DNA of 64,000 nucleotides from Perkinsus chesapeaki (Eukaryota > Perkinsozoa > Perkinsida > Perkinsidae). The notes beneath the pieces are model-generated. The model ran no database searches and was not told the DNA's origin. It saw only the letters and a list, made by a program, of their open reading frames with translations. Below, in pieces: positions 2,961-58,631 of the stretch. Positions within the stretch are counted from its first letter, which is position 1. The number at the start of each line of letters is the position of its first letter. Position numbers and translations under genes: made by a program. Where the stretch lies: the NCBI GenBank assembly GCA_013115145.1, contig JAAPAO010000058.1:26235-90234 (forward strand). The letters are read 5' to 3'.

Positions 2961-3058
2961 GGTGGGAGAGAGAATCCTGGAGAAGAACGATGGAGCCGAA
3001 GAGGCGGCATGCCCAACAAGACGCCTATGAGTGTCAAGAAAACGACCATATGCATGTA

Positions 3059-4041
3059 CTAGTAGCGTTTGATGAAGGCAACATAAGCAAACACCAACAG
3101 CGGTATCGAAAAAATAACAGTCAAATGTAATTGATTCAATCCAAACACAGAGTCCTCCTTCACCATCCATCGACTGCTCTTGTACCAGCCCGTGATGCAG
3201 GCGACGTATGCCAGCATCAGGGTCACTTTACCAGCGTACCTATGGGGGAGTCTAGTTTATGGCGTGGTTTGGATTGAACAATGACCTGTGGCCCATGCGA
3301 AGGTATGCCTCTGTTGTTAGAGAGGTCCTAATTTTGCAATCAGGATCGAGACCAAGGAAGCCACCACACGCCACACCTACATAGGAGGAGAGATACGAGA
3401 TATCTAGCTGAGGATATGATACTCACCAGCAAGCATCGCAGCTGCTGTAACGCCGATCCAGGAATGCCATGTTTGGAGATGGTGCTTATGGTGCATCTCC
3501 TTATTGGTATAAATAACATAGAGCCCACCAACAACCATGGAAAGGGTAATGAGGAGGAGAAAGCCATGAGTCTTGGTGTTGAAGTAACCTGTCTAACTGT
3601 CATCAATCTTTCATAAACTGCTCGCCGGAAAAAGCATTCTCAAGCGAGGGTCGGTCTCAGAGTAGCATTTCGTACGAAGGTCAATTGTAGATTAGAGAGT
3701 CTTGCATCAGAGTAGTCTGGCATCCCTCACCGACCTCCGATCTTTTTGATGAGCACCGCTGATGTAGCGATGGGAACTGTACCGACAAGCATTAAGAATG
3801 GATGCCAGTAGAACCAGTCAATCGGTGCTAAAAAACAGTCATAAAAGACAACAGGAGGAGTAACCGAATCACTTGGCTTTAGCATTAGCACTGCTACTGT
3901 CGTGAAGACGACCAGAGGCCCGAGCATGATCCTGACATAAATGTGGAGCCCCCGTGTAACAGTCGCTGCGGCTCACTGGAAGTATCGTTTGCGTCGTAGG
4001 GTCTCCTCAGCTTTAATCTTGGCGAGTGACTCCCCACTCAT
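3059..4041 (-). CDS. Cytochrome b561 domain transmembrane protein, spliced
   Basis: A probable transmembrane electron carrier of the cytochrome b561 family, which moves electrons from ascorbate across a membrane and can reduce ferric iron. Four coding exons are visible from the ATG at 4041 (MSGESLAKIKAEE). They contain WHPFLMLVGTVPIATSAVLI (first conserved His), KTHGFLLLITLSMVVGGLYV, MHHKHHLQTWHSWIGVTA (core His residues) and GHRYAGKVTLMLAYVACI. A fifth hydrophobic segment precedes the stop at 3059-3061. Introns of 45 nt (near 3950), about 50 nt (near 3400) and 45 nt (near 3270) restore the frame. The intron after KKIGG is longer, about 160 nt. Haem-ligand assignment is by family pattern. It lies near a ZIP transporter, and a ferroportin gene is elsewhere in the window, so a metal role is possible but not shown. 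Confidence 0.8.
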
Positions 4042-11811: not shown

Positions 11812-13730
11812 CTATTTGGAGTTGTTTCGATCAGCAGTAGCTGCTACGTCTCCTGCTGGGACTTTCTTAATGTGGAACAGCTTACCAGCAATAAGAGCCA
11901 ATGGTGCGCTTATCACCGACAACAACGCACCGAGTTTAGCCTCGGCTAGCAGAGCAGGTTCTCGGTATGCAGACTGGGCCACAAAGAGAGCTACAGTGAG
12001 GCCTGCACCAGAGACTATACCGACAACGAAGAGATGTCGGTATGTCATTCCTTCGGGGAGACCAAACTTCATGAGGTAGCTGGCAATCCAACCGAAGCTG
12101 AAGATACCAATAGTCTTGCCGACTATAAGGGAGGCCGTCACACACAGTGTCACATACCCGACAGAATCACTGGTAAATTTGATACCGGCGTTAGCAAGGG
12201 CAAAGAAGAACAGACCACAATGCACCCAGAAGGCACAGTCGTAGTTGAACTTCTCTAAGGGACCTTCGATAATGCTGCTGTCCAGTGGCGTCTCGATGGT
12301 CTCGTTAGCAGAGTCACACTGAGAAGAGACGTCATCACTATCCGCCTTCCTCTCCTTCCATCGCCTCCACGCTTTAACCACAAAGTTGGGCTCTCTGGTA
12401 TCAATCTCCTTGGGCATAAATGGCACGATTAAACACAGGGCCAAAGAGGCATGTACAGATGCCTTCAACAAGCCATACCATGCCAGAGGGCCACACAGGA
12501 ACACATACCAAGCCCAATGCCTGACCTTCAGCTTCCTTAGTAGGAACGCCAACAAGCACGCAGCCACACACAGGAGCAAGTATATATATTGAGCCTGGTG
12601 GGGTGACGGGTAGAATATAGCGATCACCAGCATACCACCGACATCATCGGCAACTGCTAATAACAATATAAACCGTATGGCTGCGTGGCCGCCTCCGAAT
12701 ACAAAGGAAGCCACTAACCAAGCGATTGATATGTCAGTTGATACTACAATACCCCAGCCATTAAGTATAGCACTGAGATCCTCATCGTAGTTGTCAAAGC
12801 CTCCACAAGCGTTAATGATGTAAACGAGGGAGAAGAATACGAGAATTGGGCCAAGCATGCCACCGAGCGTACCTAAGGCCGAACATAGGCAAAGGCTAGA
12901 GAGGCAGGCACGGGCTCACTCATTAGAGGTACAATTGCCTTCTTTATCGGGGACAATGAGCCTCCTGGAAGTACAGCTTCGACCACTTCAACCATGGCAA
13001 TACCAAAGAAGAAACACATAAAGACGTCATTTAAAAGGAAGTTCAGAGTAACCTGATAACCATCCTCACTCGACGTGATTTCTTAACTCTTCATCGTCTG
13101 CAAAATGGACACCCGGGATTCGAGAGCAGCTGCATTTAGAATGCCCACTGTGTGCCGTCCATCCTCCTGAACCCCTACTACCGGTTCCCCAGCTATAGTA
13201 GCACCGCCAAGATCAAGCGTCTTATCTTCATCCGTGCCCCAAAGATACACATAGCTGTCCTCGTCTAGGTTAGCCCACAGAAGGCCAGCTACCACACCAA
13301 GCTGGAGTGGTATGAAGTATGTTGTTACTATACGGCGGATATACAAGTACCAATGCCTCCATGTGGTCAGGAATCTGATCCCAAACCGATTGGAGCGACC
13401 CCTCCTTCCCACTACTACTTCCTAGGATTCTTAACATCGGCTACTAGTGTCTCATCATGGCCCCTGAAGAATCTATCGTGGGACTCTAATGCAAGCTCAA
13501 CCCTCAGCCTGGTAGCTTCCGTCGCCAGAGCTCCGTCCGTCTCCGCGCGTTTTACGTTCTGCAAGAGTCAGCACGATGATGCCTGACATTGCCCCTTCAG
13601 GTGTTACATCTTCATAGACGTCCCGTGGAATCCTAGTGGGTGATGCATCCCTGAACTCCGAGTCGGTCCTTGGCCTTATAAATCTGTCATGCTGCGGCAC
13701 AATCGTTGTCTTGCTCCTCGGCACGGTCAT
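11812..13730 (-). CDS. NhaA-type Na+/H+ antiporter, copy 1, spliced
   Basis: A membrane antiporter of the bacterial NhaA type. The long last exon holds the functional core: [19 protein letters not shown] (conserved Asp of the TDIAFA motif), then [19 protein letters not shown] with the paired Asp residues that bind Na+ and H+ in Nha[19 protein letters not shown] follows, with the conserved Lys in the GK motif. Upstream exons give [20 protein letters not shown] (basic, pre-helix 1), a TM1 with [10 protein letters not shown], and [20 protein letters not shown], which corresponds to the INDGLMAVFF region. Introns: 44 nt near 13400, about 98 nt near 13080 and 47 nt at 12873-12919. The ATG at 13730 lies inside exon 2 by comparison with copy 2, so at least one 5' exon is missing from this span; candidate exons lie at 13740-14010. 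Confidence 0.88.
12433..12522 (-). repeat. Near-identical tract shared with NhaA copy 2
   Basis: This 90-nt coding tract matches 15157-15246 at 89 of 90 positions, third codon positions included. It encodes the helix beginning [15 protein letters not shown]. Flanking sequence diverges in the usual way at third positions. Either recent gene conversion or unusual nucleotide-level constraint. Confidence 0.85.
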
Positions 13731-14517: not shown

Positions 14518-16527
14518 TCACTTGGCTACAGAAGCAGTCGGTTCAACGACAGCGGCTGATGGCGACTCGCCGGCGGGAACCTTAACGATTCTGAAGAGAC
14601 GGCCAGCTACTATCGCCACTGGAGCAACTATAATTGATAGAAGAGCTCCGAGCTTAGCTTGGGCCAACAAACCCGGCTGGGTATAAGCAGACTGTGCCAC
14701 GAAGAGGGCTACAGTAAGACCGGCACCGGAGATAATACCAACCACAAACAAGTGCTTTAGAGTCATACCCTCAGGTAGACCAAACTTGAAGAGGCTGCTT
14801 GCAATCCATCCCAGAGTAAAGATACCAATAGTCTTACCAAAGACAAGTGAGCACGTAATGCTCACTGTTACAAGGCCAACCGATTCCCCACTCAGCTTTA
14901 CACCAGCATTAGCTAAAGCAAAGAAGAACAGGCCAATGTGGACAAAGAAGGCACAGTCGTGGTCGAACTTCTCAAGTGGGCCGGTGACTATACCGCTGCC
15001 CTCCAGCGGTTTCTCGGAGTAATCTATACTTGAGCTCGTCTTAGAACCTTCCTCCACCTCCTCGACAACATCCTTCTTTCTCCATCGCCTCCACGCTTTA
15101 ACGAAGTAGTTGGGCTCTCTGGTATCAATCTCCTTGGGCATGAAGGGCACGATCATACACAGGGCCAAAGAGGCATGTACAGATGCCTTCAGCAAGCCAT
15201 ACCATGCCAGAGGGCCACACAGGAACACATACCAAGCCCAATGCCTAACCTTCATTGTCCTTAAGAAGAGCGCCAAGACACATGCCCCGACACACAGTAG
15301 AAGGTACACGTACTCCGCAGCGTAAGGAGATGGATAGAAGAAAGCGATAATTAGGACGCCACCGACATCATCAGCAACGGCCAGAAGCAAGAGGAATTTG
15401 ATAGCAGCATGGCCACCTCCGAATACAAAGGAAGCTACCAGCCAAGCTATCGAGATATCGGTGGCCACGACAATACCCCAGCCATTGAGTATTGTAGAGA
15501 GCTCTTCTTCGTAGCTGTCAAAGCCTCCAAAAGCGTTCATAGTGAACATAAGGGCAAAGAAGATACTTATAGGCCCGAGGATGCCTCCCAGAGTTCCTAA
15601 TAAAAGAGCTTGCTTCCAGAACACCTCAGCTATTGGCCGCCACCATCACCTTACCCATTAGAGGTACAATTGCCTTCTTCATCGGTGATAATGAGCCTCC
15701 TGGCAATACTGCCACGACAATCTCAACCATAGCAATGCCAAAGAAGAAGCACATAAATATATCATTAATAAGAAAATGTAACGTTACCTGACAACAAGCA
15801 CATGATCCACTATAGGTAGTAGCCTACATGATGGCCGCCAATAGTGAAGCCTAGATCCAATGTCTTATACTTATCAGTCCCCCACAGATATACGTAATTA
15901 TCCTCATCGATATTAGCCCATAACAACGCTGCAAGAACTCCCAATTGCAATGGTACAAAATAGGTTGTCGCTATACGTCGGATATACAAATACCAATGCC
16001 TCCACGTAGTCAGGAACCTACACACAATTGCCGACCCCAATGACGACAGCAGCAGCGCCTTCCCTACTTCCTCGGGTTCTCCACGCTTGCCAGCGTCTGG
16101 TCATGCCCTCGGAAGAACTGGTCATGTGACTCAAGCGCCAACTCTACTCGCAATCGAGTGGCCTCAATCGCCAATGCCCCATCAGTCGCGGCTCGCTGAA
16201 CATTTTTCTGAAAGCCATCAGATTGCAAGACGATCCTCTGCGACAGACTACTACCTCCTCGTAAACATCTCGAGGAATTCTGGTAGGAGATGCAGCCATG
16301 AACTCAGAATCTGTTCGTGGCCGCACAAAGCGGCTCTGCTGCGGCACGCCTTCTGTTGTCTGACTGCGGGACACTACCATGTCCGGCACCTAAGGAGTCA
16401 GTATTTAACGACCAAGCAGCAGGAAGGACGATACCTCCAAGAAGGCCGCCCGCTTCCTCTCGGAATCTGCTTTGAACTCGGCATAGTTCAGAGAGAATGA
16501 AGAGTCGCCAATAGGACGATTATCCAT
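14518..16527 (-). CDS. NhaA-type Na+/H+ antiporter, copy 2, spliced
   Basis: Complete paralogue of copy 1. The ATG at 16527 starts [20 protein letters not shown], a soluble N-terminus also containing [20 protein letters not shown]. Next come [40 protein letters not shown] and [15 protein letters not shown]. The last exon holds [36 protein letters not shown] (paired Asp) and [18 protein letters not shown] (conserved Lys). The C-terminal helix [16 protein letters not shown] matches the NhaA end. Introns: 45 nt (near 16410), 47 nt (near 16230), 50 nt (near 16040), 40 nt (near 15810) and only 25 nt at 15630-15654. The N-terminus of roughly 110 residues is absent from bacterial NhaA. Whether it sits in the plasma membrane or in an organelle is not visible. 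Confidence 0.92.
15630..15654 (-). other. 25-nt spliceosomal intron in NhaA copy 2
   Basis: The minus strand reads GTAAGGTGATGG...GGCCAATAG between an exon ending in VPLM plus one base and an exon starting [11 protein letters not shown]. Removing 25 nt restores the frame through a conserved block. Copy 1 has a 47-nt intron at the same codon. Confidence 0.75.
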
Positions 16528-34242: not shown

Positions 34243-37200
34243 TATGACCTCTCCAAAGGCAAGGAAGAGATCTTCCAATGGCATTCAGGAGGGGACAACG
34301 GTGAGTTGTGCAACCGCTAGGCTCTTCGGACTGACCACTTCAGGAAGTTGATGAAGTAGAAGATGCTGCAGCCTGGGCGCTCTCCCACATGAACGATGAT
34401 GATGCGGCTGATGGGCCCGTGCAGGACTCGGCTCTGACTGCGAGTGGTGCCGCCACAGGCACTCAGCAAAAACAGGTGTGTCTGCCTATATGTTGTATAG
34501 TGTATCTATTTCATCAGGTTCATAGGTTCATAGCCGAGCTTCAAGGGAAGGAAGAGGAGGCTTGTGCTGCATTGAAGACAGCAGTCTACCGTTGCCGCCA
34601 GGGGGATTTTTCTGGCCTCAGTACGTCTGCCTTTAACGCTACAGAGCGACAAAGTCTCCAACTCTCAGAACGTTACGTTGTCCTGTCGCCAGCGTGTGGT
34701 GAGCTCTTCACCCTCGCTGAACGAAAGGATCAGTCGGAGGCTGGTCGGACCATCAGCACTACTGCCCTCTTCCTAGTGGAGCTGCTCGGTACGGAAGGGT
34801 ACTCAGCGGAAATTGTCACTCAAGTCCCGAATGTTCAGGTTGGATACTGTTGGGCTGTGTTGAGGGGAGGTTCCCGAGCTCCTCGGTGACCGGCAATGCC
34901 GTCTGCCGTGGCATATTAAACTCCTCTACTATGTTTACTTCGCGCTGTCTATTCGCAGTCTTGAACACCTCCAGGGACTGGGCTCTCATCGGGGCCCTCA
35001 GGCTCCTCAAAGGTGGTGGCATCATCCACTGCCATTAAGGGATAGTTAGACTTTCGCTCAGGCCTCTTCTCGTTTTCCCCTCGAGTGGCTTTACAGACCA
35101 ACACTGCTGTGGCCAATTGGACGGTCACTCGAGATGCCAAAGGCACGGCGGCGAACGACACAACTGAGCATGGTTGGAAGGCGCTTTCCAGGCTGCTTGG
35201 GCGACGCAGGGTTACTGTAATTATAGCGAACGAACTGCTGCTCGAAACGATTGCTCCAGGCCGAGGGCGACACTGTTAGAGAGCACGGCCTCCATCTGGC
35301 CGTGGCCATCTTGAAGGCCGCCGAGACTAACAAGGATCTCGCCGCTCAACTTGTCCTTCATCCGGTAGCAGTACTTCACGCAGTACTGGAAGAAGTGTGA
35401 CCATGTCAATGCTTAGATGTGGCGACCATTCCTCAGCCGAGCGTTGGCTGGTAGCGGCAACGAGACGTGCGTGGCTCCTCAACAACGTGGCGAAAACAAC
35501 GACAATCGCCCACGGGACGTAACTATGGCCTTGGAGAGGATGCGCCAGGCTGAAGTGGCAGTGCTGGAGCAGTTGGGCCACTTCCTTAGGAACGCTAAGG
35601 TGAATCACTCTGCCATCTAGAGCTGTCCATCACAACTTTTATTCAGTCCCGCCGGACCCGCCTATTCACTGACCAGGAGTTCTTCCTTCCCCGTCTGTCC
35701 CGTGTGGTGGTGGAAGCCACTGACGAATCCGTTCTGGATGCGGCCGAGGCACTCTGGACTTCGATAGCCACGGACACTGAGCTCTGGTCTGGAGATATGA
35801 ACAGCCTCGGTATCGCTCTAGCAGCTATAAAGCCACCTTGCGACTCCCAGACTAACATCCTCTCCGAGGCCCTGTCTGCGCACAAGTCACCGGAGCTATG
35901 GCACGCAGTCGCAGAGAAGTCATCCCTCTCCTTATCACCAACGCCATCTTTACGGTGGCTCGCAGCTGTGGCATCGGCCGTCGAATTGCTAGATGACCCA
36001 ACTCCCTGTGAGGCTCCTCTGCTGCCGTCTTGCCTGAACAGATCTGAGCTCACCGCCGGCCTGTTGTTCGCTGGCAAGGACCGAGTACTTGTCCGTACAA
36101 CCACTCTAGGTCTCATTACCGCAGCCCTGAAAAGATTGACTAGTAACCACGTCCAGAATATTGCGGTAAGATCGCGCCTTTTTCGTTGAAGTGTTTTAGG
36201 CTACTTTTCAGGTGCTCAACGAGGTCGCTAGCATCCTCCCCGATATGCAAACGATCCTCAACGTCAAACCACCTTCCACGTCCACGAGCGCTCCCTACCT
36301 CCTGGCCTGGTCCCAGTGCATTTGCGCCTACCAGGAGGCTCTGCCCGGACGCTTCCTACAATGCAAGTTTGACTGGGGCCGATCCCTTATCGAGTGCCAT
36401 GAGCCCGTTCAAAGGGCGGTGCTGCTGCCCATGACCACACGGGTCCTCGCCAGCTTCCCGCTGGGCAAGAGCAAGCTCGCTTGGCTTAGACACCTCGTCG
36501 AGACTGACGCAATCGACGAGTTTTCTGAAAGCCTTTACGCCACTGGTCTATTCAATAGCCAGAAAGAGGCTCGGCACTGGGCGAGCTTGCCCACCAAGCC
36601 CGAGAGGCTTTGGGTCATCTCCGTCCTGCAGCAACTGGCTCAGCATCCTCTATTGCCAGTTGACACCTGGGCATCTGACTTCGTTAAGCAAGCTCTAACA
36701 GGGAAGCCCTCGCCCCCTCCTGGCAGCTGTTGTGTGGCTGATGCCGTGCTGTTGTTGGTACAGTCAGGAGAGGTCCCTATAGAGGAGTGGAGGCGCTTAC
36801 TCGGTCAGTACGGCAACCAGGGAGACCTGCTCAAGGACCTGGACTTGTCAAGTTCCACTAGCGACCTCAACTGCAACGAAACCAAATCCCGTTCACTCGA
36901 TCCCTTAGACAGTTTGATCGCCCGTGCCACCGATGGTAGCACTGACTTGTCAGCTGCCGCCCAGTCCCCGACGCTCTTGGCGGCTGCAGTTGACGAGCTT
37001 TCCTATGAAGGGGAGTTCTCTGCCGCACTCGACATCATCTCGTCGGTGCCCAGTAAAGGGTACGATGTATTCGGCCTCGACGGTGTCCTCGCTAAGAATC
37101 CTGCCCTACTCTCCGCCATTGCCAGTGCCGATCCGGAACAGTTCCGCCACGGTTTGCTCTGGGTCCTATCTCCGAGTGTATTCGTACAAGTTGCTCAGTA

Positions 37201-39731
37201 CCGCAGTGCCATTGCCTTCGAGACCGCTGACTACTTACAGCACAAGCCCAAGAAGCTGAGGAAGAAGTGGGGACCGCAGCGCTTCGATCGCTCCGTGGTT
37301 GGCGCTTGTTGTGCTTTGGTTGCACATGATGGCGATGAGAGGGCCCAAGCCCTGGCCAATGAGTTCGGTCCTATATCGATGGAGCTGGACCAACTACCTC
37401 GAAGGCTCCTCCCTCGTTTGCCCTCACGGCTCATCGACATCAGCTCACTGAGCACCGCTGCTATCATTGCCGAGAACGACTCTGCTCTCTCACAGTGGTG
37501 GGTTGACGGAGGCCATCTAGATCTCGAAGACGGGTCCATGACAGATGATGTGCTCTTGGAGATCTTGGAGACGACCACCCTGCCGGAGGCCAGTCTGTCT
37601 GACCTTGTGAAGTCTGGTAGAATAACTCCATCGAACGCTGTTGCCGCCGGAAAGCAACTCAGTCGGCTGGAAGAGGTCAAAGAGAGCGTCCGCGAGTACT
37701 GGTATAGCAAGGTTGTCCCTTCCCTACCCGACCCAACGCTTCTTGGCGACGCCAGTACCGTCCTTGCTATGGCTTACAGTCCCTGCGAAGGCCACTATGA
37801 GTTGCTACAGCGGCTAGTGGGGCTTTGGGGCCTTAGTCGCTCCGAAAACGACAAGGCCTTACTAAGAATGATACTGGAGATAAGCTGCATGCATGAACTC
37901 TCCCGCAAGGCTGAGTATCGTCCTGACTCTAGGATACCACGTGCCATTGCCAAGGAGTGTCATAGGTTACCCGTACCAGCAATATTGTTGGATAACAAGT
38001 ACGCTCGTGAAGCCACGTCTGATCTATGCTTGGATTCCTTTCAGCTTGTCTATGGTTAGCTCCGAGCCGTCCGAATCCCTCGACATAGACGCCTTCACTG
38101 TTTTCACTGCCGGCCGGATTCGGCGAGCAGATGCCACAACGACTGATGAGGACTGGCAGAACTACACGCCAGCAGCCGAGTTGGACTCGCTCGCCACAGA
38201 GCTTTGCTCCAGTGGCCGTGCGCTTGGAGCCCTACTGGTCGCCACTTCGAGTCGAGATAAGATCGTCAGAGACCTGTCCAGAGATGCGCTTGGTCGGATT
38301 ACCAGCTGCCTGGAATTGAAGGTTCAAGGCCGCGACCAGAGCGGCATCCGACTGGGGTTCCGAGACGCACATGAGGTAACTCTAACCTGCATCTGTGCCA
38401 GGTGTATTGGCATTGTTTCGCCAGGTGCTGTTTCTCCTGCATGCCTACCTCAACTCTTTGCCCGAATCGACGGACCAGCCATCGCCATCAGTGCTGGCCC
38501 ATGCTGTAGCGCAAATGGCCAACGTGGTGGTGCGACCTGAGTCCCCTGAGTACGAGGAGGTCTGTCATTCCCTGCTGGCCAGGTAGGCTCATCATTAGCA
38601 TCTATTCAGGCTAGAATGCTCTATTAGGCCAGCTTTGGACACCACAGATGTGCCCCTTTGGTTTGATCTGTTTTACTCCAAAAGCGTCACCAACTGTACC
38701 CACCATAGACGTTGGATACTGCAAGTGCTCACTACACCTACTCATCCGGACTACATCACACCAGGTCGGCGAAGGGGGCTCGCTGGTAGCTTTAAACCGC
38801 TCTGTTAGATACTGTCACCGGGCCTTTGGGGAAGCGTCGCGTTCCTGAGGCTCTGATGGCTCTTACTGCCGATGTCACCCAGACTGATATCCAATTGGAA
38901 AGCTACTCCCTCGACATTGTAAAGAGACTTTAACCTCACTAGCTTGTCCTTACACACTCCGTCTTTAGATGTACCACATCATTCAGTTTTACTGCTCGAG
39001 GCCAGCAGCACTCGTGAAGTTCGTGAAGAACCACGCTGTTGTAGAGTGGTCTTATAACCTCCTCCGGGACAAGGGCAATGTAAGGCCTCCCGTCCTCTTG
39101 GCTTACCAGAGTACCCCTTCAGGTGGAAGCACTTCGGTCCACGAGTCTGGACATAGCGAGTCTACTTCTTGCCAAGCTGCCTGCGCATCCTAATCTGGTT
39201 GGGTTACTCGATCTCTTCGCGGATCTTGCGGACACATCACGGCTTCACTCACTGGCAGCTACCGTCCTACCGCGGTACATACGATGGGCTACCTCAAAGC
39301 TAGTCGACAAACTAGCTGTGATGCAGTTGCCGCTCACTAGCCTGCTTCGCATGCTCTCCCAAAGGCCCACCGATCCTTGCTTGATGAAGTCGGTTGTTGC
39401 ATCCCTAAAAGCTACCACAACTACCAAGGCTCCTGCGGAATTGGAGACTGCTTTCATCTCCGTCTGCCGCTCGGAAACCCCTGGCGCCATCGACTTAGCA
39501 CGGAGAGCATCTGGGTTGATGGGATTGACGTGGAAGTCTCGAATCGCAATCGCCAACATCCTTCTTCGTGGCAACAAACGAGCCCTCCTAAGTCTGCCCG
39601 TGGATGCACTGGAAGCCATGAGCCGACTGCCCACCGTAGAGGATCTGCCCGACTGGCCTGATGAAGTCGATAGGGATGTTATCGAGGACGCAGAGACCCT
39701 CATGCGAGCTGCTATCAGTGCCTCAGCTTAG
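34243..39731 (+). CDS. URB1: URB1/NPA1-like nucleolar pre-ribosomal protein, spliced
   Basis: A large helical-repeat protein of the URB1/Npa1 family, which helps assemble early pre-60S particles in the nucleolus. The ATG at 34243 (MTSPKARKRSSNGIQEG) is followed by an acidic segment, then HRFIAELQGKEEEACAALKT and PELLGDRQCRLPWHIKLLYY. LNRSELTAGLLFAGKDRVLV and a single 1.85-kb exon (36213-38059) form the HEAT-like middle. The C-terminal signature is strong: TTDVPLWFDLFYSKSVTNCT continuing HHRRWILQVLT (38640-38740), and RPAALVKFVKNHAVVEWSYN (39000-39050). The stop is at 39729-39731. At least eleven exons; boundaries between 35040 and 35640 and between 38780 and 38970 are approximate. Assignment rests mainly on the C-terminal block. 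Confidence 0.8.
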
Positions 39732-40248: not shown

Positions 40249-42480
40249 TCAAACTGCGGGTTCCTCCCGAGGAGGTGGCATGGTGAAGTCAGGATTGGGC
40301 ATGAATTCATCCTTCACGAAGGTGTAGCTTACAACATGGGTACGCAGCCAATGGATCGATTCGGTCTTCTTCCACGAAGGTTGTTTCTTGACCCAGTCGC
40401 GGTACATGTCGTTGGAAACAATAACACCATCCTTCTTTCTTGCATACTGGAGACAGTAAGAATCATCGTAATCCTAAAAGTGAACATATTGCCCACTTTT
40501 AAAGGAGCGTAAAGCAATCTCACCTTTGAAGGGGTGAGGGCGAGTCTGCCCTGAGTTTGCAGCTTGAGCAAGATGCCTATGTTATCCACCGGTATGTGGG
40601 TTGGTGCGGCCTTAATGCCATGTAAAGTCTGAACCTTCATCTTCTGAGCATTGCGAAGCTTAAACAACTCGTTACGGTCAACCAAGTAGTCCGGGAGAAA
40701 CACCATCACCTAAGCCACAATAATGCACCCTCGACACCATCGGATCATCACACCTCGTGCCCCCGAGATACATAGTAATCGACACAGATCTGCAGTCCCT
40801 TGCAAGTGAACTGTTGTCCGCCATGTCGGTTAGCAACATTAGGCCCATCAATCAGCACTAGTGGCTTGTAGTCATCTTGAGCAGGGCTATCGCGGAATCG
40901 AACTTCTGGTGTATAGCTGTTGGTTGACGTTCCACTTGAACCATCTTCTAGAAGGTTTCCCTGAAGCAGCAGTCTCATTGGCCATATGCCTTCAATGAGA
41001 GCTTACCCATCTATCAGTGCCACTATTTTTGAACGTGCAAGCTCGGCGAACTGCCGTAGTTGGTTTCGCTCTTTCCCGTTCAACACTCCTGGATTTCCTT
41101 ACATAACGCGGCTTTGCCCGCTTCACCTCCACCACCGGCTCCGAGGCCTTCCTGACTCCTATATCCTTCGTTATCGAATACATGCCGCGAGGCTTTGACT
41201 TAGGAGAGATATGTAGACAGATGCTCACCAGCCTGCTAGCCATCGCCGCGCTCGGATTCTCACTGGGTCGACCTGGAGTCATGGCTTTGCGGAATACGTC
41301 GGTTTCAACAGTGGACGCCCAAGGACTGTCGGTAACCGTGGCTGCGTACTTGGCACAATGTGCCTCTACTATACCATCTACATCAGCATCACCATGCCAA
41401 TGAGGTCCCATGAATTCAAGGCTAAGGAGAAGTGAGCACCATAGAGCAGAGGTCGATATCCTATCAGCCTCCAGGACTGGTTCCAGAGCCAATGCTGCTC
41501 CTATCGACGAGATCAACGCCTTAACTGGCCCCCGCTCCTCTTCGGTTGAAGAAAGCGTAAGTGCAGCAGTTAGCAAGACCAACCAATGCCAAGTACCCGT
41601 TGAAGTCTTCGGCGGCTCGTCCACCATCACCAAACCAGCAAGCTTCAATGGCTCAGGAGCTTGTGATTCGCCCCGCATGCACGCCGTACACTGACTTAGG
41701 ATGCCCTTCGCGAATGCCTGCGCTGGCTCCGGCACTTCCTTTTGGCGCCGAGCAGCGCTATCAATTTTAGCAACTAAATGCTCTGTCTGTTCCCCACCAC
41801 CAGCCGAGTCGTAGCGCAGAAGATCGTAGCAGATTTTGACGAGGCGTCTACGCTGGAGACTGGAAGTTATCGATAGGAGGCCGACGGCTGGGGAATGACG
41901 AGGCCCCAAGTAGCGCACACAACGCTCGTAATGCTCCACGGCTAGGTTCAAGTGGCTTGGCTCGACAAAGCTGCCAACATACCTGAAGCATCCAACTCAC
42001 GACCATCGGGTCAGATAAGTACCTCTCGAGATCGCCAAAGACAACCTCGAAGCGGCCGTCCAGGACACGCAGTACAGCAGCGTCACCTTTAGCTCCTTTG
42101 CTTTCCCCAATCCTCCGTCGTAAATCCGTGAAGTACATATTCACAGTCTTGGCCTGCAGTCTAAGCTGCTCCTTTAGTTCCTCACGTTTGCCGCTGCCTG
42201 CCTCTGCTCCCAGAGACCGCAGAGCAGCCATCGTTTCGGATAAAGGATCATACCTGCCCAAGGCCTCATGGCCAACCACAGCGCCGCCGCCCTACACTAT
42301 CTTCCAGATCTTGCCAACTGCCCTCCCCTTCACTGCCTCAACGAACTTGTCCTTATCGGCGCTGGTCAAGGCCGTCTCATAGATGTCGAGCCTCTCCACC
42401 GGGCTGGTGGGGCGCGATCGATTGCTCCGAGGATCTTCGCTGGCCTCCTCACTGGAGGTCGAGCTATTACCGTCATTCAT
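40249..42480 (-). CDS. Regnase/Zc3h12a-type PIN-like endoribonuclease, spliced
   Basis: The C-terminus (40249-40890) is a Zc3h12a-type NYN/PIN RNase domain: PLVLIDGPNVANRHGGQQFT (first catalytic Asp), GLQICVDYYVSRGHEVMVFL, then DYDDSYCLQYARKKDGVIVS, with the acidic pair in DYDD, and NDMYRDWVKKQP. The N-terminal two thirds, from the ATG at 42480 (MNDGNSSTSSEEASED), is helical and unfamiliar. It contains TALTSADKDKFVEAVKGRAV, LKEQLRLQAKTVNMYFTDLR, ERYLSDPMVVSWMLQ, then ERCVRYLGPRHSPAVGLLSI and a Lys/Arg-rich linker. Introns of 44, 41, 46 and 50 nt. No CCCH zinc finger is visible, unlike animal Regnase-1. The protein probably cleaves RNA, but its targets are unknown. Confidence 0.82.
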
Positions 42481-42633: not shown

Positions 42634-45600
42634 TTAGCGTCTCTGAGAGCTTCTGCGATTGTTGCCTCGACCTCCTGAGCGTCCACCGCCACCTCGATCG
42701 CTAGACCTCCGGGAGTCTCCCCTGAATCTGAACCCAACAAATAGACCGCTGGTTGATGACAGCTAATGAGGGCCTACCGGTCGCGGCTCGCACCACGGTG
42801 ACTCGATGAACGACGGTATCCCTCATCGACCTTCCTATCTCGACTATGGTAATCCCGATCGTCCCGATGTCTGCTGCCCGATCGAGACCGACTGCCACAC
42901 AACCAAAACATCATCACCATACGTACCAATGGTTTTATTACCTTCTGGTGCCAGGCTCCCATCGATCAGGTTCATCCTCATATTGCTCACTTCTCCTATC
43001 CCTTCTATGACTCGACTGCCGGTGACTGCGCTCTCCCTTATCTTCCTCCTCGCCGTGATGACGGTCTGGGGGGCTGCTGGCTCTCCGTCGCCTCTTGCTT
43101 AGTGTCGCCGCATTAACCGATAGTTTACATTCATGTTTACGCCGTGAGCCAACCCTCTCGCATGGTAAAGGATGACGGTCGTAGCTAGGCCTATTGGAAA
43201 TAACCTGCCCCCCGGTCTGAGGCAGCCACTGCAGTGGACTGTCCGCAGTGATGTCAACCAAAGACAATCCCTCTGTGTCCGGACCTAATCGGTACCTCAT
43301 GATGAAACGTGCAGAGTTCACTCGACCACCGGCGCTTTCGACACAATGGGGCCGGATCAAATCAACAGTTCCTTCACTAGAATTCTGCACCATCAACAAA
43401 GGCTCTTGATAATAGGGCAAGTAGATCGGCACCAAAGCACTTGCAGTGGAAGAGACCTTCGTTCGGGACACTTCTGTCCATTTACCATCAGCCAAGGGTA
43501 AATGAGCAATCACCAGATACCCTGGCTGTTCCAACCACGCCATGAAGACCTCCACTGGCCAGGTATTCACCGAAAGCCTTCGAGCAGCGTAGACGTACAG
43601 CGGCACCGGTCGACAAGCCGTTCCGATGTTACCGTTGGCTTTAGCCAGAGCCTTCGGCTTAGATATCTCGACGGTAGCCCTCTGAGGATCCGCAATGACA
43701 CGAATAGAAGTGCCATGGTCAGCCGTGTGGACTATGAAGAATGTGCAGACTTGCTGCTGCTGTCCCGGGGCCTTCGAGTGATGGTAGAGCACCTCCACCT
43801 CACAGGAGCTATCGAAGAACTCCGGCTCTTGAAGCACGTCAACCTCTCTCACGAACTGCCAGGCCGTGGTGGGGTTCTGGACGAAAAAGACACCACCTTT
43901 CTGACTAGATCGGTGCACCGCCATAACGAACAAGTCGGGCTCGGTGGAGGTGCTGGTGACAGGAGAGAACATGAAGGGATAGAAGTGGCATTGAGAGAAG
44001 GGCACAGCTTCATCGCCGAACTCGAGCAGTGTTGTCCATTGGTCGCAGTGCTGGCTGACGTCAGCCGCGCAGACCTTGGTGGATTGATGCTTGGCGTCCT
44101 GTACCACCACAAAGAGGCATTCCCTATTGGGGGCCCATCTCAACGGAGTGACTCTCATACTCTTCGATGAGCTTCGACCAGGAGCTATCACGCTACTTGG
44201 AAGGGCCTTCATGTCCAAGTCCAGGCCCTGCAAAGTTGAAAGGCAGCACGCTGCTCCTTTACGACTGCTATGGGCAGCAGTAGCAGTAACCTTGGTGGGG
44301 CTGCCAGAACTGCCATCAATCGCCGATCCACAGTCTTCTCTGACCCAAAGTATGCTGGTATCGTTTTCCACCGGTCGAGGTGGCGGAATATTAACAGGCA
44401 TAGGTGGCTCGAAGGGGAGCCTCTTGTCGACGAAGCGCCCATCGTAGCGATCTGGAGCAGCCAGGTCGGTGAGGGGCAGATCCATTGTGAGATCTCTGAC
44501 GCTGCATTTGGTGACCCTCGGCACTTGCATCTGTCGGACTACCCGAGGATTCGGGCTCATCACCAGCCGATCGCACGATAGGCCTTCAGATAGGTAAAGC
44601 CTCCACACCTGCATCGTCCCCGCTGCTCCAGCATCACCTGCAGATGTCGCCAACAAAAGAGGCTCCGGCAAGTAAGGAAGATAGACCGGGGCGATCCTCG
44701 TATGCGGAGAGGTGCTCAGCGTGACAGCGGCTACCCTCTGCCAGGAGTCGGTGGCCAAGGCGTTGAACTGGGGCAGCTTTGCTATACGCAGCATGCCACC
44801 AGCTACCCAAGCCACGTAAATGTGGAAGTTGGGCAGCGAAGAGTGGGACTCTCCAGAGGAGGAAGGAGGCAGGACGTAGAGGACCTTAAGCTTGCAAGAT
44901 ACGTCCACGTCACCGTTGGTGATAGAGCTGTTCACCTTGACCCAGGCAGCTGTGGGGTCGCAGATCTCCCTCAATGCACAAGCATCACCGTCCTGGATGA
45001 AGACGAATGTTCTCCCTTGCATATAAACAGGAGTGACTCGAACGTTGCATCTGACTCCAGGGGTCACCGACCATTCCTCTCCAGGAGCTATGTCCCTCAA
45101 AGGCACCCACGGCTGGTTCGGGGCGCTCACTTGGAACACTCTACCCGCACCAGTGGGACGGTGCAGAGCCAGGACGATCATCAGATACTGGCCAGGAGAG
45201 TCTGGGGTCTCTCCGGGGGCCAAAGGAGCCCGAAGCATCATCGGCACCAACTTGGACTCTGCCAGAGCTTGGTCATCTCTGGTCTCGAACATCGTCGGCC
45301 ACATCTCCATTGGACTATCCGACCGCGACACGCACATGCGCAGTCGGCCAGTCTGCTTGTGCTGGAGGATGACGAATGGCTCCTTCTCGTTGGACCATCT
45401 CAGAGGTGTGCACTTCCAGCCCCTCTCGGTAGGCTGGGCTGCATCAGGCTTCGATAAATAAAACTGTTCACCTTCAGACTTCAGCGTCGACAGCTCACTC
45501 ACGTCCAGGCCAGGAGGGTTCTTCAGTGTAACCATCACCGGTGTACTGGCAAGTAGCATATCCCCACTGGGGAGAGCACCACCATTAATGACTCCAACAC

Positions 45601-47578
45601 CCGGCGGCGGTGGCGGCATGCCTCCAATTGGCGGTGGCGGTGGAGGCGGAGGCTGTTGCTGGCCTCCCATTGGTGGCGGTGGTGGGGGAGGGGGAGGCTG
45701 CATTGACCGACCGTAACCTTTACCACTGTTGGTCCTATGAACTGGCTTGGTCTCCTTAGCCCATTGCAGGACATGATCGACCAGCTTAGTGAACTCCTCT
45801 TTGGCTAGGGCAAGGACGTGCTCCTTCGGCTGGGGGCCAGGGCGACCGCTGTCGTAATAGACCATGATATGGACCCTTGGGTCGGTGAAGACAGAGCCAT
45901 AATTCTTCATACTTCGGGCGGCCAAGGTAACCCTTGCCTTGCACACGGACGCGATCTGTTTCACATTCATACCAGACGGGCCCATGAGGCGGCTGAAAAT
46001 GTTGTCGTGGCGGTAGGCGCCCATCGACCCTTGGAGCATCCTCTGGCTGTCGGAGAAGGTGACAACCATCGGCTCATCCATCGCCTGGGCCCCAGGGATG
46101 ATCTCAGAAGCGAACTTGCCATCTATCGCGTCCTTGCAGGCCGAAGCGCCATCGTGGGACTCAAAGAGAACATAGGCCTCGCCTCGGGACTCGGTCGGGG
46201 TGGCACCGCCATCACGGACGATGAAGACCTCCATGATGCTACCGTACTTCGACAGCGACACGCCGATCTCCTGAAACGAGATAAATCAATAAAGAAACAG
46301 CGTAGACGCATAAGACCGAAACCTAACCTATTTGGTATCTTGTTGCGCACGGCGAAGATTTATTGCTGCCCTCAGGAAGGAGACATATCACATTCGCGAG
46401 GAGGGTTCTGGGGGCTTCCACCAAGAGGGTTCTGCTGCCACTGACTGCCAATTTGGGCAACACAAGGCCAGGGGATCATCAATTCAGCCCGAGCTAGAAA
46501 GCCCAGGGCTTGGATCGAAAGAATCATGTAAAGTTGAAGCGATTTGGAGTGAAAGAATTGTTATGAGCTACTGGAGGTTAGTGATGCCAAAGTCGATGAC
46601 GTTACATTATCTGAGATGGACTTGGGCAAGTTGCGGATGAAGAGCTCGTCATCAGACTGCACTCCGGTGGTAGTGTAGGGCTCTCCATCATATCTATTTT
46701 GCAGGTCTAACTCATCCACGTAAATCTGATAGAAAAACCGGATAACATCAACAACTCAAAGCCTTCCTTACCTTTTCAAAAGGCATGTGACTATTATTGA
46801 CCCTTGAATGGTCTAGCTGATGAGGTGGAGGTGCCCCCATAGACATTCCTCCCGGGGGCGGTGGTGGAGGAGGCGGGGGTGTCGCCGGACGAGGATTGGA
46901 TCCTGTCCCTTGACTCCGGGCCGGACTTCTGGACCTTTCGCGCCGTACAGCCTCCTACAGTCAGACCGTAAGGCTCCCCTCTCAGGCGTCCATAGTTTCC
47001 TTACGGCAATTGCCGACTTAATCATCTCCATTGCTCTATCAACCTTCGACTTTGGGCCAGTAACATCGATACGCCTCATGTTCATAGCATCAGGGGCTCT
47101 ATCGATCTGAACGTGAGCTCCACTCTCGTTCTGGATGCCACTGATCCTCTCGCCGTTCCTCCCTAAATGGATAAGGCAAACCTGATTAGTCTATCCCTCC
47201 TGGATGATGCTGGCTGCACCATCATCATCATGGTGGTCTCGCTATGCCCAAGGAGCTTGTGCCGGCAGAACCGTTACTTAAAACTCAAAACAACGCGAAA
47301 GGCCATGCTCGTGGTCTAAGTCATGTTGGCCGCAGCCGGTGCAGCCGATAGCAGTAGCCGCAGTTCGTACGGAAAGAATAATAATGCTCACCAATAATGA
47401 TGCCCGCGAAATCGTTCCTAATCAACTGATGCTCGGAGACCTCAGGCTCGGCAGGGGTCGAGGGGGCTTCAGGCTCAGCCGGCGAAGCGGACGAATTGGC
47501 GGCCCCTTCCACAGCAGCTAACGAAGTTGCTTCTGGTGGGGGAGTTCCTTGAGGAGGAGAAGGAGTCGCTGTTGACAT
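42634..47578 (-). CDS. KH + RRM + poly-Pro + duplicated domain + SR/RGG RNA-binding protein, spliced
   Basis: A large RNA-binding protein. The ATG at 47578 gives MSTATPSPPQGTPPPE. A KH domain follows, with the GxxG loop formed across an intron: FAGIIIG joined to RNGERISGIQNESGAHVQID. Next come an RS/poly-Pro stretch and an RRM (DDELFIRNLPKSIS, later LSKYGSIMEVFIVRDGGAT and RGEAYVLFES). A second conserved region, FSRLMGPSGMNVKQIASVCK, looks like another KH-type GPSG loop. Two long poly-Pro runs follow (45600-45710). Then come two homologous repeats of about 300 residues, starting TPLRWSNEKEPFVILQHKQT and TPLRWAPNRECLFVVVQDAK. The C-terminus is SR-rich and ends in GGGGRSGGRGNNRRSSQRR (stop 42634-42636). 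Most of the protein is one 3.3-kb exon. An SF1-like or splicing role is plausible. Confidence 0.85.
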
Positions 47579-48113
47579 GAACGCAAAGGCGCTTGGAGGT
47601 TGGTAGAAATTGTTCAGCACGAATTCCAGGCGGAGCGAAGCGATTCACGTTCTTGCAGTTTTCTTGCAGAGCCTAATGCCCAAGAGACATCGCAACAGTA
47701 GCACTTTTGGCAGCCGATGGAGTGAGGGGGGTAGGTTCAGTGTTATCGTGTAGCCCGTCCTTGAGTAGTTCATACCAAACACTAAGGGGAATCAAGTCGC
47801 TGTAACAAAATCTTACCCCACTGCTGTTTGTAGGCAGCTGCTGATTTCGTTAGGGGGATTCCCACAGATAATCTTTATGGGACATGCACTTGTCGTTCTA
47901 ATGTGAATCGTTCGAATGGCTCTGCTTAGCAATGGATCCTCGCGTATAGACGGACAATTCCATCTTTTGATGAAGGGTTTTTTTCAATCCTAAGGCAGAG
48001 TCTGCCTTAGCATCATCCGGTAACGAGTGACTCGTTTGCAATAAGGTCATCTCATTTACCTATCTCGACCGTATCTCCTCGACGACGGGTGACTCTATCA
48101 CAACTGGTCTCGT
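47579..48113. promoter_or_regulatory. Divergent region between KH/RRM gene and NCKX
   Basis: About 535 bases with no gene. It should contain promoters or 5' UTRs for both flanking genes. It holds a T-run (47979-47984 region) and the palindrome at 47990-48010. Confidence 0.4.
47990..48010. repeat. Perfect 21-bp palindrome
   Basis: Arms CTAAGGCAGA (47990-47999) and TCTGCCTTAG (48001-48010) around a single G, directly after a T-rich run. It lies 104 bases upstream of the NCKX start. Could be a dimeric-protein site or an RNA hairpin. Confidence 0.85.
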
Positions 48114-49634
48114 ATGAAGTTCCCTCGGTTCAGTTGGATGAGGCTGCTCGTACCACTCCTATCCCATGCCATCCCACTAACCATCGCTTCCCAACAAGTC
48201 CACTCATCAGTGGACTTCTCAGCATGGGAGGCTCTGTCTCACCGTAAGTTGTCGGCTGGCGCTGGCGAATCCAGCTCCATTCTGGCTCTCGTATTTGGAG
48301 AGTGCCTGTGCACCGGAGCCCTCGATTGCAACACCGAGGTTGATGGGTCCAGCGTCATTCCCCCCGCTCTGGACCTCTTAATATCCTTCATCATCATGCT
48401 TTACATGTTCAAGCTCCTTGGGTCCATGTGTGATGAATACTTTGTCCAATCCTTGAGCAGCATCTCAGAGGCCCTCAATCTCTCCCCAGACGTCGCCGGT
48501 GCTACCTTCATGGCAGCTGGCTCCTCCGCGCCAGAGCTCTTCACCTCGGTTATGGCGACGTTTTTAATCGTCAATGAAGGAGGCGTTGGTACCATTATCG
48601 GCTCTGCCATATTCAACATCCTTGTCATTGTCGGGGCCACCTGCTTGTTCGCGGGACAGGCCCTTAAGATTTGCTGGTATCCGTTGGCCCGGGACACTAC
48701 CTTCTATGTGATAGCCATTGTGATGATGACACTGTTCCTCCTAGATGAGGAAATTGTTCTTTGGGAGTCCCTGCTGATGATTATCGGCTACGTCGGTTAC
48801 TGCACCTACATGAAGTACAACGACTGGATTGCCGCCAAGCTCGGCGTTGAGAGGTCGACGCCCGTCCTGGATTTCCACGACAGCGTCCCTCTTCCAGTCC
48901 TCCCTGTCGATGGTGGCACTGGTGGTCTCTCCGACGGACCACGCAGTGCGCCGTCATCACGGAAGTCTTCGTTAGAGGCTCCGGTCGGTCATATGATGCG
49001 CAGAGCAAGCACACATTTCGGGGAGCTCAAGTTCAGGGCGAAGGTTCACACCGAGACCACTCTCATCCAGGAGGCATCAGTCGAGGATAAAGAGGGGGAG
49101 GAGGAGCCGCGGCTGTATGACCCTATACTTGTTCTGTGGAGGAGGACCATGCCATCTGACGACCACTATTGGCTGCTCTTCACTGCCTCTGTGCTTTGGA
49201 TAGGCTTGCTGACCTACCTTATGGTAGATGCATGTAACAGGATAGGTTGCCTGTTGAATCTGCCAGTCCTCGTAATGGGCCTGATATTCCTAGCAGCCGG
49301 CACCAGCGTGCCCGATGCCCTGGGCTCTATTGCGGTAGCACGCCACGGTGAAGGCGATATGGCAGTATCGAATGCGATAGGCTCTAACGTCTTCGATATC
49401 ATGCTTGGCTTGGGGGTGCCTTGGACACTTAAACTGGCGATGGGCAAGGAGGTACTCTTTCCGACCGCTAACGAAGAGCTTCCCCGCTATATTATAATAT
49501 TGGTTATTGTATTGGCATTGTTCCTATTCTCTGTAACAGTTGCCAAATGTGTTTTGAACCGTTTAATGGGGGTCTGCTTATTAGGACTGTACTGTTGCTA
49601 TATCGTGTATGCCTTGGTTATGGCTGCTACCTAG
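48114..49634 (+). CDS. K+-dependent Na+/Ca2+ exchanger (NCKX, SLC24 family)
   Basis: A single exon of 506 residues. The N-terminus MKFPRFSWMRLLVPLLSHAI is a probable signal peptide. The alpha-1 repeat has LSPDVAGATFMAAGSSAPEL (about residues 123-142) followed by GTIIGSAIFNILVIVGATC. A hydrophilic loop with Ser-rich and acidic stretches spans about residues 250-345. The alpha-2 repeat has LVMGLIFLAAGTSVPDALGS and AVSNAIGSNVFDIMLGLGVP, close to the NCKX consensus. Eleven or so membrane segments in total. It would expel Ca2+ using Na+ and K+ gradients. Lack of introns is unusual for this window. ATG at 48114, stop 49632-49634. Confidence 0.95.
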   Translation: MKFPRFSWMRLLVPLLSHAIPLTIASQQVHSSVDFSAWEALSHRKLSAGAGESSSILALVFGECLCTGALDCNTEVDGSSVIPPALDLLISFIIMLYMFKLLGSMCDEYFVQSLSSISEALNLSPDVAGATFMAAGSSAPELFTSVMATFLIVNEGGVGTIIGSAIFNILVIVGATCLFAGQALKICWYPLARDTTFYVIAIVMMTLFLLDEEIVLWESLLMIIGYVGYCTYMKYNDWIAAKLGVERSTPVLDFHDSVPLPVLPVDGGTGGLSDGPRSAPSSRKSSLEAPVGHMMRRASTHFGELKFRAKVHTETTLIQEASVEDKEGEEEPRLYDPILVLWRRTMPSDDHYWLLFTASVLWIGLLTYLMVDACNRIGCLLNLPVLVMGLIFLAAGTSVPDALGSIAVARHGEGDMAVSNAIGSNVFDIMLGLGVPWTLKLAMGKEVLFPTANEELPRYIIILVIVLALFLFSVTVAKCVLNRLMGVCLLGLYCCYIVYALVMAAT

Positions 49635-55885: not shown

Positions 55886-56566
55886 TTACACATAGTGTGG
55901 CATAACGGCCCTAACGACCGTATGGACTACTGCTAATTCAATTAATAGGATACACAATGGTGTTATGAGATCCATTGGTCTACTGTTAACCTTCCCTGAG
56001 GAGGAGGAGGACACATCCCTGCTATCGGCGGTTTCGTGAACGTATTCGGTATCTTCATAACGTGGAGGAGGATTCCGCCTCGCGTACTGACTGGTGTAAA
56101 AGTTATAGAAGTCCTCTGGATCGGATGAGTAAAACTCATAGTACTGGTCTGGCCCCTCAGACCTATACACATAGGTGTGTCTGTTCCGTCCGCCATTATA
56201 AGCGAATCCGTTCTTGGCTTTATTAGCATTTCTACGTTGAGTGAGCTGCCGTATCCCGGCGTTCCTCGCAGAGTCATAGTCGGAACGCGTTTGATGATTG
56301 CTTAGCACTTCATAGGCCTCGTTGATCTGGGCGATCCTCTCCGTAGCGTGAGGCTCTGAGCTGACATCGGGATGATGCTTCTTCGCCAAGGCCTTGTATG
56401 AGTGCTTAATTTCAGCGGTACTGGCAAGTTGGTCCACGCCCAGTATCTGGTAGTAGTCGACCATTGGGTTGAATTTGGTGTTGGGGGCGACAGCTGATAC
56501 AAAATACTGTGATGGCGTGAGGGTAAGGGATATCAGAAATGCAAGAATACCATTCATAAGTGACAT
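55886..56566 (-). CDS. DnaJ (J-domain) protein, probable ER membrane
   Basis: A single exon of 226 residues. An N-terminal hydrophobic leader (MSLMNGILAFLISLTLTPSQ) suggests ER entry. The J domain follows at about residues 36-100: DYYQILGVDQLASTAEIKHS, then YKALAKKHHPDVSSEPH with the HPD motif that stimulates Hsp70, and INEAYEVLSNHQTRSDYDSA. A linker rich in Tyr, Asn and Arg (DQYYEFYSSDPEDFYNFYTS) ends in a C-terminal membrane segment (LITPLCILLIELAVVHTVV). No Gly/Phe or zinc-finger region, so a type C J protein. The ATG at 56566 is 132 bases from the divergent kinase start. Confidence 0.92.
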   Translation of the reverse strand: MSLMNGILAFLISLTLTPSQYFVSAVAPNTKFNPMVDYYQILGVDQLASTAEIKHSYKALAKKHHPDVSSEPHATERIAQINEAYEVLSNHQTRSDYDSARNAGIRQLTQRRNANKAKNGFAYNGGRNRHTYVYRSEGPDQYYEFYSSDPEDFYNFYTSQYARRNPPPRYEDTEYVHETADSRDVSSSSSGKVNSRPMDLITPLCILLIELAVVHTVVRAVMPHYV

Positions 56567-56698
56567 TAAGATGAGAAAAGTCGATTGATGATGCTGATCG
56601 TAGGTCGGATGATTCCGTTGAGGAATCTCAAGAGAAGCAAGTTGAGCAAGGTTCAGCGCACTTTGCTACTGACACGAGACGCAGGTTGAATTTGGAGA
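56567..56698. promoter_or_regulatory. 132-bp divergent promoter region
   Basis: Separates the starts of the DnaJ (minus) and NEK-like kinase (plus) genes. Probably a shared bidirectional promoter. No TATA box or other element could be assigned. Confidence 0.45.
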
Positions 56699-58631
56699 AT
56701 GCCGCATGATAACGAAGGCCAGGCAGGCACCAACCCGGAGGATGCCGGCTTATCGGTCGATATGGCACCTTATGGATATGAGTCAGTGAAATACATTGGG
56801 AAGTAAGAGCGTTTTAGTTGGCTTTTGACGTGTTATATTGTGCTGCTCTTTATGCCATGTATGCCATGTCAGGGGCCAGTATGCAAGCGCCTGTCTAGTT
56901 CACCCAGTTGGCAGTGACACACCGCTGCTTGTGGCCAAGTTGGTTAACCTTGACGTCTTAAACGAGCCTGATCGGCGACTAGCTGAGCAAGAGGTTGCAC
57001 TTCTCCAACAGTTATCTCATCCTAATATAGTATCTTATCATACTCACTTCATAGTGGATACCCCTCACTCTATTCTGGGCATAATAATGGACTTTTGCGA
57101 CATGGGAGACCTTCGCACTGCAGTAAAGCACAAACAGAAGGCCGGTGGACACTTCTCCGAGCGACATGTGATGACCTGGTTCACCCAATGCGCTCAAGCT
57201 CTAGACTATATCCATAGCAGAAAGATTCTTCACAGAGACCTCAAAACAAGCAATATCTTTCTCACACAAGAAGAGAGCAATGAGTTCCCCACTGTCAAAC
57301 TAGGAGACTTCGGTATTAGCAGAGTCCTCGAGGGTACCATGGAGGCTTGCCTAACTGTTGTCGGCACCCCGTACTACATGAGCCCCGAGCTCTGCCGTAA
57401 CGAGCCTTACAGCTTCAAATCGGACGTGTGGGCACTCGGGTGTGTGCTTTATGAGCTATGTATGCTACAGCACGCGTTCCGAGCTGACTCCCTGTGGGGG
57501 CTCGTGTACAAAGTAGTTAGCGACAACTACGAGCCTATACCACCTGACGTCTACTCAGCGAGCCTCAACGATCTTATCAGACGTCTCCTATGCAAATCAG
57601 CTGATGAGAGGCCGTCAACTTCCGAGATACTAAGCGATTCGTATGTCCGTAGATTCATTGGGAACTCCCTTCAGCAGTCTGAGCCACCAACAGCAACTGA
57701 AGTACCTGTGGTGAAGGTGAGCTCACTCGGAGGCAAGGCTCGGCCTTTGAATAGTACACCTTCTAGCCCGACCAAGAGCAGCAGCTCTATACCACCGCCA
57801 CCGCCACCTCGAAGGTCTCTGGGTTTAGGAAAGACAATTCCTCCTCCTCCATCGCCTCAGCGTAGGGAAGGATCTCTCGGCTTGTCCAATACGTCAAGTA
57901 TTGATGAATACTACAATATATGTATGATGCGAATTCGACGAGAGTTTATTGTGCGGAAGTTCAACTGGGTCCAGGCGTTCGCCAAGTTCGATAAGGATGG
58001 ACAGGGAGCGCTCGAACCGAACGACTTCATGCAGGCCCTCCTCACCATGAATCTCAGCATATCGATATCAGAGGCGGAGGTTGTGGCGACCGTCCTCGCC
58101 AAGTGTCAGGAAAGTTGCAGCTCATCTTCGCCTGTGACCGCCGGTCTGATACCTCTCCATCGATTTCAAGCAGGCCTTCAGTCAGTGTCCCAAAGCAAAG
58201 TCATGGGACTAGAGCAGTGGGCCCGAGAGAGGCTCGCCGGGGTCTCAACTGAAGACCTATTTGAGCGGTTTAAGGCGCTTGGGGCGCACAAGATGGGCGG
58301 CATTGTTGACCAGCAAGGCTTCGAGGAAGTTCTTATGAACGCATGCCCGGGCTTAAGCACAACCGAGGCATCTAGGATCTACTGGCTGGCGCAGAAAAAC
58401 CAAGCTGGGCAAGTAGACGTTAGTGACTTTGTGCAGCGCTATACACGGACGACCGCGGCGTCCGAGCCTATTCTACCGGCATCTCCGACAAGTCGGCAGT
58501 CTCAATTGGGGGCACCGCTGGTCCCTACGGGAGCTCCTCCCCTGCCGCCACCGATGCCCTCTGGTAAGACCTTAGACATGTCACGAACGGCATTTATAAC
58601 GGCGAGGAGCGGAGGCTTCAATGCAACATGA
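56699..58631 (+). CDS. NEK-like protein kinase with C-terminal EF-hand-like region, spliced
   Basis: Exon 1 starts at the ATG at 56699 (MPHDNEGQAGTNPEDAGLSV). A 70-nt intron splits the Gly-rich loop: YIGK joined to GQYASACLV. The kinase domain shows the VAIK-type Lys (LLVAKLVNLD), the HRD loop LHRDLKTSNIFLTQEE, DFG in KLGDFGISRVLEG, activation-loop VVGTPYYMSPELC and DVWALGCVLYELCML. This is NEK-family style. A Pro/Ser linker follows (PPPPPPRRSLGLGKTIPPPP). The C-terminal part has calmodulin-like repeats: AFAKFDKDGQGALEPNDFMQ is a recognisable EF loop, and FKALGAHKMGGIVDQQGFEE plus LAQKNQAGQVDVSDFVQRYT are degenerate ones. A second large exon covers nearly all of the protein. Total about 630 residues. 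Ca2+ control of the kinase is inference. Confidence 0.92.

Follow-up and report, generated by a model that had tools for sequence, protein, structure and literature searches.

A Perkinsus gene predicted to join KH and RRM domains to a tandem pair of beta-propellers

Introduction

DDB1, CPSF160 and SF3B3 (RSE1) each carry several beta-propellers in one chain and serve as platforms for complexes, two of them with roles in RNA processing, while Gemin5 binds small nuclear RNA through tandem WD40 propellers of seven blades each. Here we describe a gene of Perkinsus chesapeaki, found in a 64,000-nucleotide stretch of contig JAAPAO010000058.1 (the window, to which all coordinates refer), and compare it with these systems. 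Along its 1,326-residue product lie a KH domain (KH1), an RRM, a probable second KH domain (KH2), poly-Pro runs, two homologous halves (A and B) predicted to be propellers and a basic tail. We infer, with moderate confidence, that the protein is an RNA-protein adaptor in which an RNA-binding module has been fused to an old double-propeller scaffold. A literature search by title and start of abstract found nothing on this protein or on any protein combining KH with tandem propellers.

Results

Two homologous halves with a predicted propeller fold

The initial annotation of the window had noticed two long homologous repeats in the large exon of this gene and suggested a pair of beta-propellers. 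Indeed, stretches of about 340 residues recur within one exon, and both motif pairs on which the repeat had been based lie in one frame. Half A (residues ~451-849) and half B (850-1264) align significantly in BLASTP (90.9 bits, E 3e-24; 87 of 344 positions identical, 25%). Their Smith-Waterman score is 235, compared with a maximum of 68 among 1,000 shuffles, and hhalign of the two half-profiles gives a probability of 100 (E 2.5e-41, 309 columns). These three tests rule out a chance likeness of the two stretches. The propellers were placed as follows (P0004 is one of the relatives described below):

44462..45553, minus strand: propeller A, spanning roughly residues 456-819 of the 1,326 (alignments, structure model, PDB fold matches)
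43169..44371, minus strand: propeller B, about residues 850-1250 (alignments and model; fold assigned through P0004 and matching strands)

Two AlphaFold2 structure models and their PDB fold matches agree on the fold initially suggested, and both halves are predicted, with good support, to be beta-propellers, each a closed ring of four-stranded blades. Halves were compared by strand strings, and counting from the strand lists of the models gave six blades per propeller. Off-register hhalign matches were weak, with a best probability of 71.7 between halves, 33.2 within A and 0.1 within B. No WD40 signature was matched in Pfam, and the WD dipeptide occurs in 2 of 19 sequences, once in each, and is absent from the window protein; the Asp-box pattern of sialidases was found in none of the 19, again with no Pfam match. 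Fold matches listed include ROS1, LRP6, DDB1, sialidases and spliceosomal chains, and the two-domain matches from BFVD, to proteins of phages and other viruses, were weak.

DDB1 entries make up most of the 50 Foldseek matches listed per model, and the B halves are acidic. Both observations would suit a DDB1-like adaptor that serves protein turnover or some other large complex, its propellers holding the ligase or machine and KH-RRM-KH bringing this to mRNAs. We consider this distinctly unlikely: the protein has no CPSF_A or other DDB1-family domain, its tandem propellers number two and not three, and the two-domain superpositions (root-mean-square deviation [rmsd] ~15-36 Å, TM-scores 0.11-0.27) indicate a different arrangement.

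A propeller family without a name

The remark that no known family contains this region held up, as the propellers matched nothing in Pfam or NCBIfam, their profile matched no PDB sequence, and no single known domain covering the whole region was found by sequence. Pfam gave no family at E <= 10 for four members of the propeller set (A1), and a single-sequence search of the PDB gave, within the propeller region, only an antibody chain (E 0.29). Family searches scored only the approximately 8,000 candidates sharing most words. With exon 5, which encodes both propellers, as query, 5 proteins were recovered, and a four-sequence profile recovered 17, of which the least significant had E 3e-197; nothing further appeared up to E 1. 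P0001, from another assembly, is 90% identical over the entire query, and the Perkinsus olseni protein FOZ60_003276, its nearest named relative, is 84% identical over 45% of it. Sixteen of the 17 profile matches (P0003-P0018) stand far from the Perkinsus forms; all but one of these are 684-805 residues long and have both halves, though P0016 is without the first strands, and P0018 is a 468-residue fragment. Scans of viral (IMG/VR) and prokaryote genomes with two peptide patterns each, which were not exhaustive, found no relatives, and this fits eukaryotic carriers.

A tree was built from 35 half-sequences (17 A and 18 B), leaving out both halves of P0002, from P. olseni, and the A half of P0018, which is partial; in it, A and B halves fall on opposite sides of one branch with support of 1.0. 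Identity between the window protein and the other carriers except P0001 is 35-39% for A-A and 36-42% for B-B, whereas A and B are 22-32% identical over the whole set. Since the two types separate on the tree and identity is higher within a type, the propeller duplication predates the divergence of Perkinsus and the other carriers. The propeller family has a known fold and no name, and the combination of domains is new to the searches made.

A gene model that fuses the modules

The gene lies on the minus strand in five exons with GT-AG introns and has 1,326 codons ahead of the stop:

47392..47578, minus strand: exon 1, start codon, Pro/Ala-rich N terminus and first part of KH1 (gene model)
47005..47162, minus strand: exon 2, remainder of KH1 including its GRNG loop (gain in KH_1 score on joining)
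46772..46954, minus strand: exon 3, a short RSRSP stretch and the first poly-Pro run (46853-46879)
46606..46725, minus strand: exon 4, beginning of the RRM (gain in RRM_1 score on joining)
42938..46270, minus strand: exon 5, one open frame running from the rest of the RRM through the probable KH2, poly-Pro and the two propellers to the tail and stop

Spliced together, exons 1 and 2 score 63.1 bits against KH_1 instead of 41.8, and exons 4 and 5 score 45.2 bits against RRM_1 instead of 26.6. The large exon had been placed at 42938..46261; its end stands, but its start moves to 46270, where splicing completes the RRM. P0002 spans the same four splice junctions. The 35.4 Mb assembly (884 contigs) yielded no second copy of the gene, and a look for paralogues in the genome found none. 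Opposite exon 5 runs a 287-codon open frame (44594-45457, plus strand), which we take to be mechanical.

Three Perkinsus-type sequences carry the fusion: the window protein, P0001, which has both propellers together with KH2 and a portion of the RRM, and P0002. Among the 16 distant relatives, 14 have an open reading frame (ORF) that starts 0-35 residues ahead of the propeller and P0016 and P0018 start inside it, so these ORFs hold no room for KH or RRM; P0007 and P0009 both begin MDHQRQ, suggesting true start codons. Judged on their ORFs, P0003-P0018 are favored to be standalone double-propeller proteins. The protein, initially suggested to be lineage-specific, is so in its fusion, as far as seen, and not in its double propeller, which 16 other proteins have; the double-propeller family is older than the KH/RRM fusion.

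The same start positions, and the start shared by P0007 and P0009, could also mean that the fusion is an artefact in which an adjacent KH-RRM-KH gene and a standalone double-propeller gene have been read as one. This is very improbable indeed, given that one intron-free open frame runs from within the RRM through KH2 and both propellers, that P0001 has the same frame in a different assembly at 90% identity, and that P0002 likewise joins the modules.

The RNA-binding part, the poly-Pro runs and the tail

Both RNA-binding domains named initially are clear on the spliced protein, KH1 as PF00013 and the RRM as PF00076, at the joined scores above. The remaining features of this part and of the C terminus are:

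45749..46006 (end approximate), minus strand: probable KH2 with a GPSG loop (PF22675 match)
45602..45697, minus strand: poly-Pro runs between KH2 and propeller A
42941..43153, minus strand: basic tail of mixed charge, formed by the last 71 residues, which are 23% Arg and lack RGG

A second KH domain after the RRM is probable, although its match stays below the Pfam cut-off: scored alone against PF22675, it reaches 23.4 bits (E 5.3e-5; cut-off 30) and aligns only with positions 4-39 of the 76 in the profile. The whole protein scores 37.6 bits against this profile, but as the sum of two stretches, KH1 alone giving 20.9 bits. Against PDB sequences KH2 found no relative, the single match being at E 0.51. 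The GXXG form is kept in both domains (GRNG in KH1, GPSG in probable KH2), and passages of one report (PMC12787238) describe this loop form as needed for RNA binding by KH domains. Poly-Pro runs occupy residues 141-149, 408-416, 423-430 and 435-439. The 'SR/RGG tail' initially proposed was not borne out, the last 71 residues holding two RS, one SR and no RGG. One search for the KH-RRM-KH module (candidates of ~193-614 residues) found no close relatives outside Perkinsus; nearest elsewhere were only P0019 and P0020, with 36-38% identity over about one quarter of the query.

Several of these features would suit a spliceosome-type factor, in which KH and RRM bind pre-mRNA and the double propeller acts as an SF3B3-like scaffold of the U2 small nuclear ribonucleoprotein, perhaps in spliced-leader trans-splicing. 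The best Pfam match of KH2 (below the cut-off) is the KHDC4/BBP class, exon 3 encodes the short RSRSP stretch, and spliceosomal chains (7onb_A, 5hy7_B, 9k1y_A, 7dvq_3, 7b0i_A) are among the fold matches listed. In addition, Perkinsozoa use spliced leaders, and the authors describing this suggest, in the passages concerned, that parts of the spliceosome may have diverged (PMC9399869). We nevertheless regard such a role as unlikely. KH1 matches the BBP class nearly as well (20.9 bits), making the class hardly informative; the tail is not an RS domain; propeller fold matches say nothing on function, ROS1, LRP6, DDB1 and sialidases matching equally well or better; and the standalone relatives lack any link to RNA. 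Moreover, other loci of the genome match CPSF_A (once) and, above the cut-off, the BBP-class KH domain (seven times), so the window protein is not a plain replacement. Quite improbable, too, is a Perkinsozoa-specific core ribonucleoprotein factor that ties KH-RRM-KH covalently to the double-propeller scaffold and acts in cis-splicing or in spliced-leader trans-splicing; the double propellers that occur free in other organisms would be its unfused counterparts.

Neighboring genes

About 2 kb downstream of the KH/RRM-propeller gene, on the same strand, lies an ORF piece that matches the Zc3h12a-like NYN ribonuclease family (40748-41002, 36.6 bits). Other genes in the window encode:

1887-3227, minus strand: PDCD2 C-terminal domain protein (76.3 bits)
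11812-12915 and 14518-15645, minus strand: adjacent ORFs matching Pfam Na_H_antiport_1 (158 and 162 bits), the bacterial NhaA type; a tandem pair in a protist, possibly horizontal transfer
36200-38059, plus strand: ORF of 619 residues, unmatched in Pfam at 0.001
48093-49634, plus strand: sodium/calcium exchanger (182.9 bits)
55886-56665, minus strand: DnaJ domain protein (77.5 bits)
56829-58631, plus strand: protein kinase domain (171.6 bits), followed by a weak EF-hand-like stretch below cut-off

Outside the window on the same contig, ~65 kb from the KH/RRM-propeller gene, are two KHDC4/BBP-class KH matches, L016 (C534:3634-3864, 67.9 bits) and L017 (C534:1342-1581, 64.3 bits), both with internal stops and probably crossing introns.

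Discussion

We favor an adaptor between RNA and partner proteins because the GXXG loops are kept and because propeller B is acidic in all 18 sequences while A is near neutral in 17, which argues for protein contacts. In such an adaptor, KH1, the RRM and the probable KH2 would grip single-stranded RNA, the poly-Pro linkers would give flexibility and may dock proline-binding domains, and the tandem propellers would form a rigid platform for partner proteins. RNA binding by the KH/RRM part is suggested by its domains; the binding of partners and any part in mRNA processing are likewise inferred. Splicing may be one setting for the adaptor, with indirect support from the SF3B3 scaffold parallel and the weak BBP-class match of KH2, and the initial idea of a splicing or mRNA scaffold factor is plausible.

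A number of observations weigh against the adaptor or its parts. KH2 falls below the Pfam cut-off in the window protein, and in P0001 both it and the partial RRM do. The N-terminal 450 residues have a net charge of -5, unusual for an RNA binder. P0002 stops after propeller A, perhaps through a gene-model error, and its RRM (15.7 bits) is under the cut-off. On the structural side, the window model is of fair quality (pLDDT 63.4, pTM 0.48), with low confidence in the first part of propeller B (to about residue 918); half B of the window protein appears among the PDB fold matches listed only in two-propeller rows (rmsd 18-25 Å); and an ungapped test for blade-to-blade repeats by profile lag was not significant (best 20.3 vs 24.1 for the 95% null).

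The locus points to a tandem-propeller family that has no sequence match in Pfam, NCBIfam or the PDB and whose duplication predates the split of its members, and the fusion ties this family to RNA in one lineage. Such fusions can hint at the role of the free proteins: standalone double propellers may work beside KH/RRM proteins.

Like DDB1, CPSF160 and SF3B3, which are among the fold matches listed, the window protein has multiple propellers in one chain; unlike them, it has two, without CPSF_A or a sequence match and with another placing of the propellers (rmsd ~15-36 Å). No Pfam match to CPSF_A or related domains was found in it, CPSF_A occurring elsewhere in the genome on contig C1. Gemin5 resembles it in pairing two propellers with a link to RNA, but the window protein lacks the WD40 signature, has six blades by strand count and is expected to bind RNA through KH/RRM. 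SF1/BBP and KHDC4 resemble it in proline-rich stretches and in PF22675 as the best, below-cut-off match of KH2, whereas the window protein adds KH1, the RRM and two propellers and has no CCHC zinc knuckle, a pattern absent from all 1,326 residues. SR proteins also have an RRM, but the two RS and one SR of the tail make no long RS domain. P0003-P0018, without KH or RRM in their ORFs, belong to the same propeller family and share 35-42% identity per half with the window protein.
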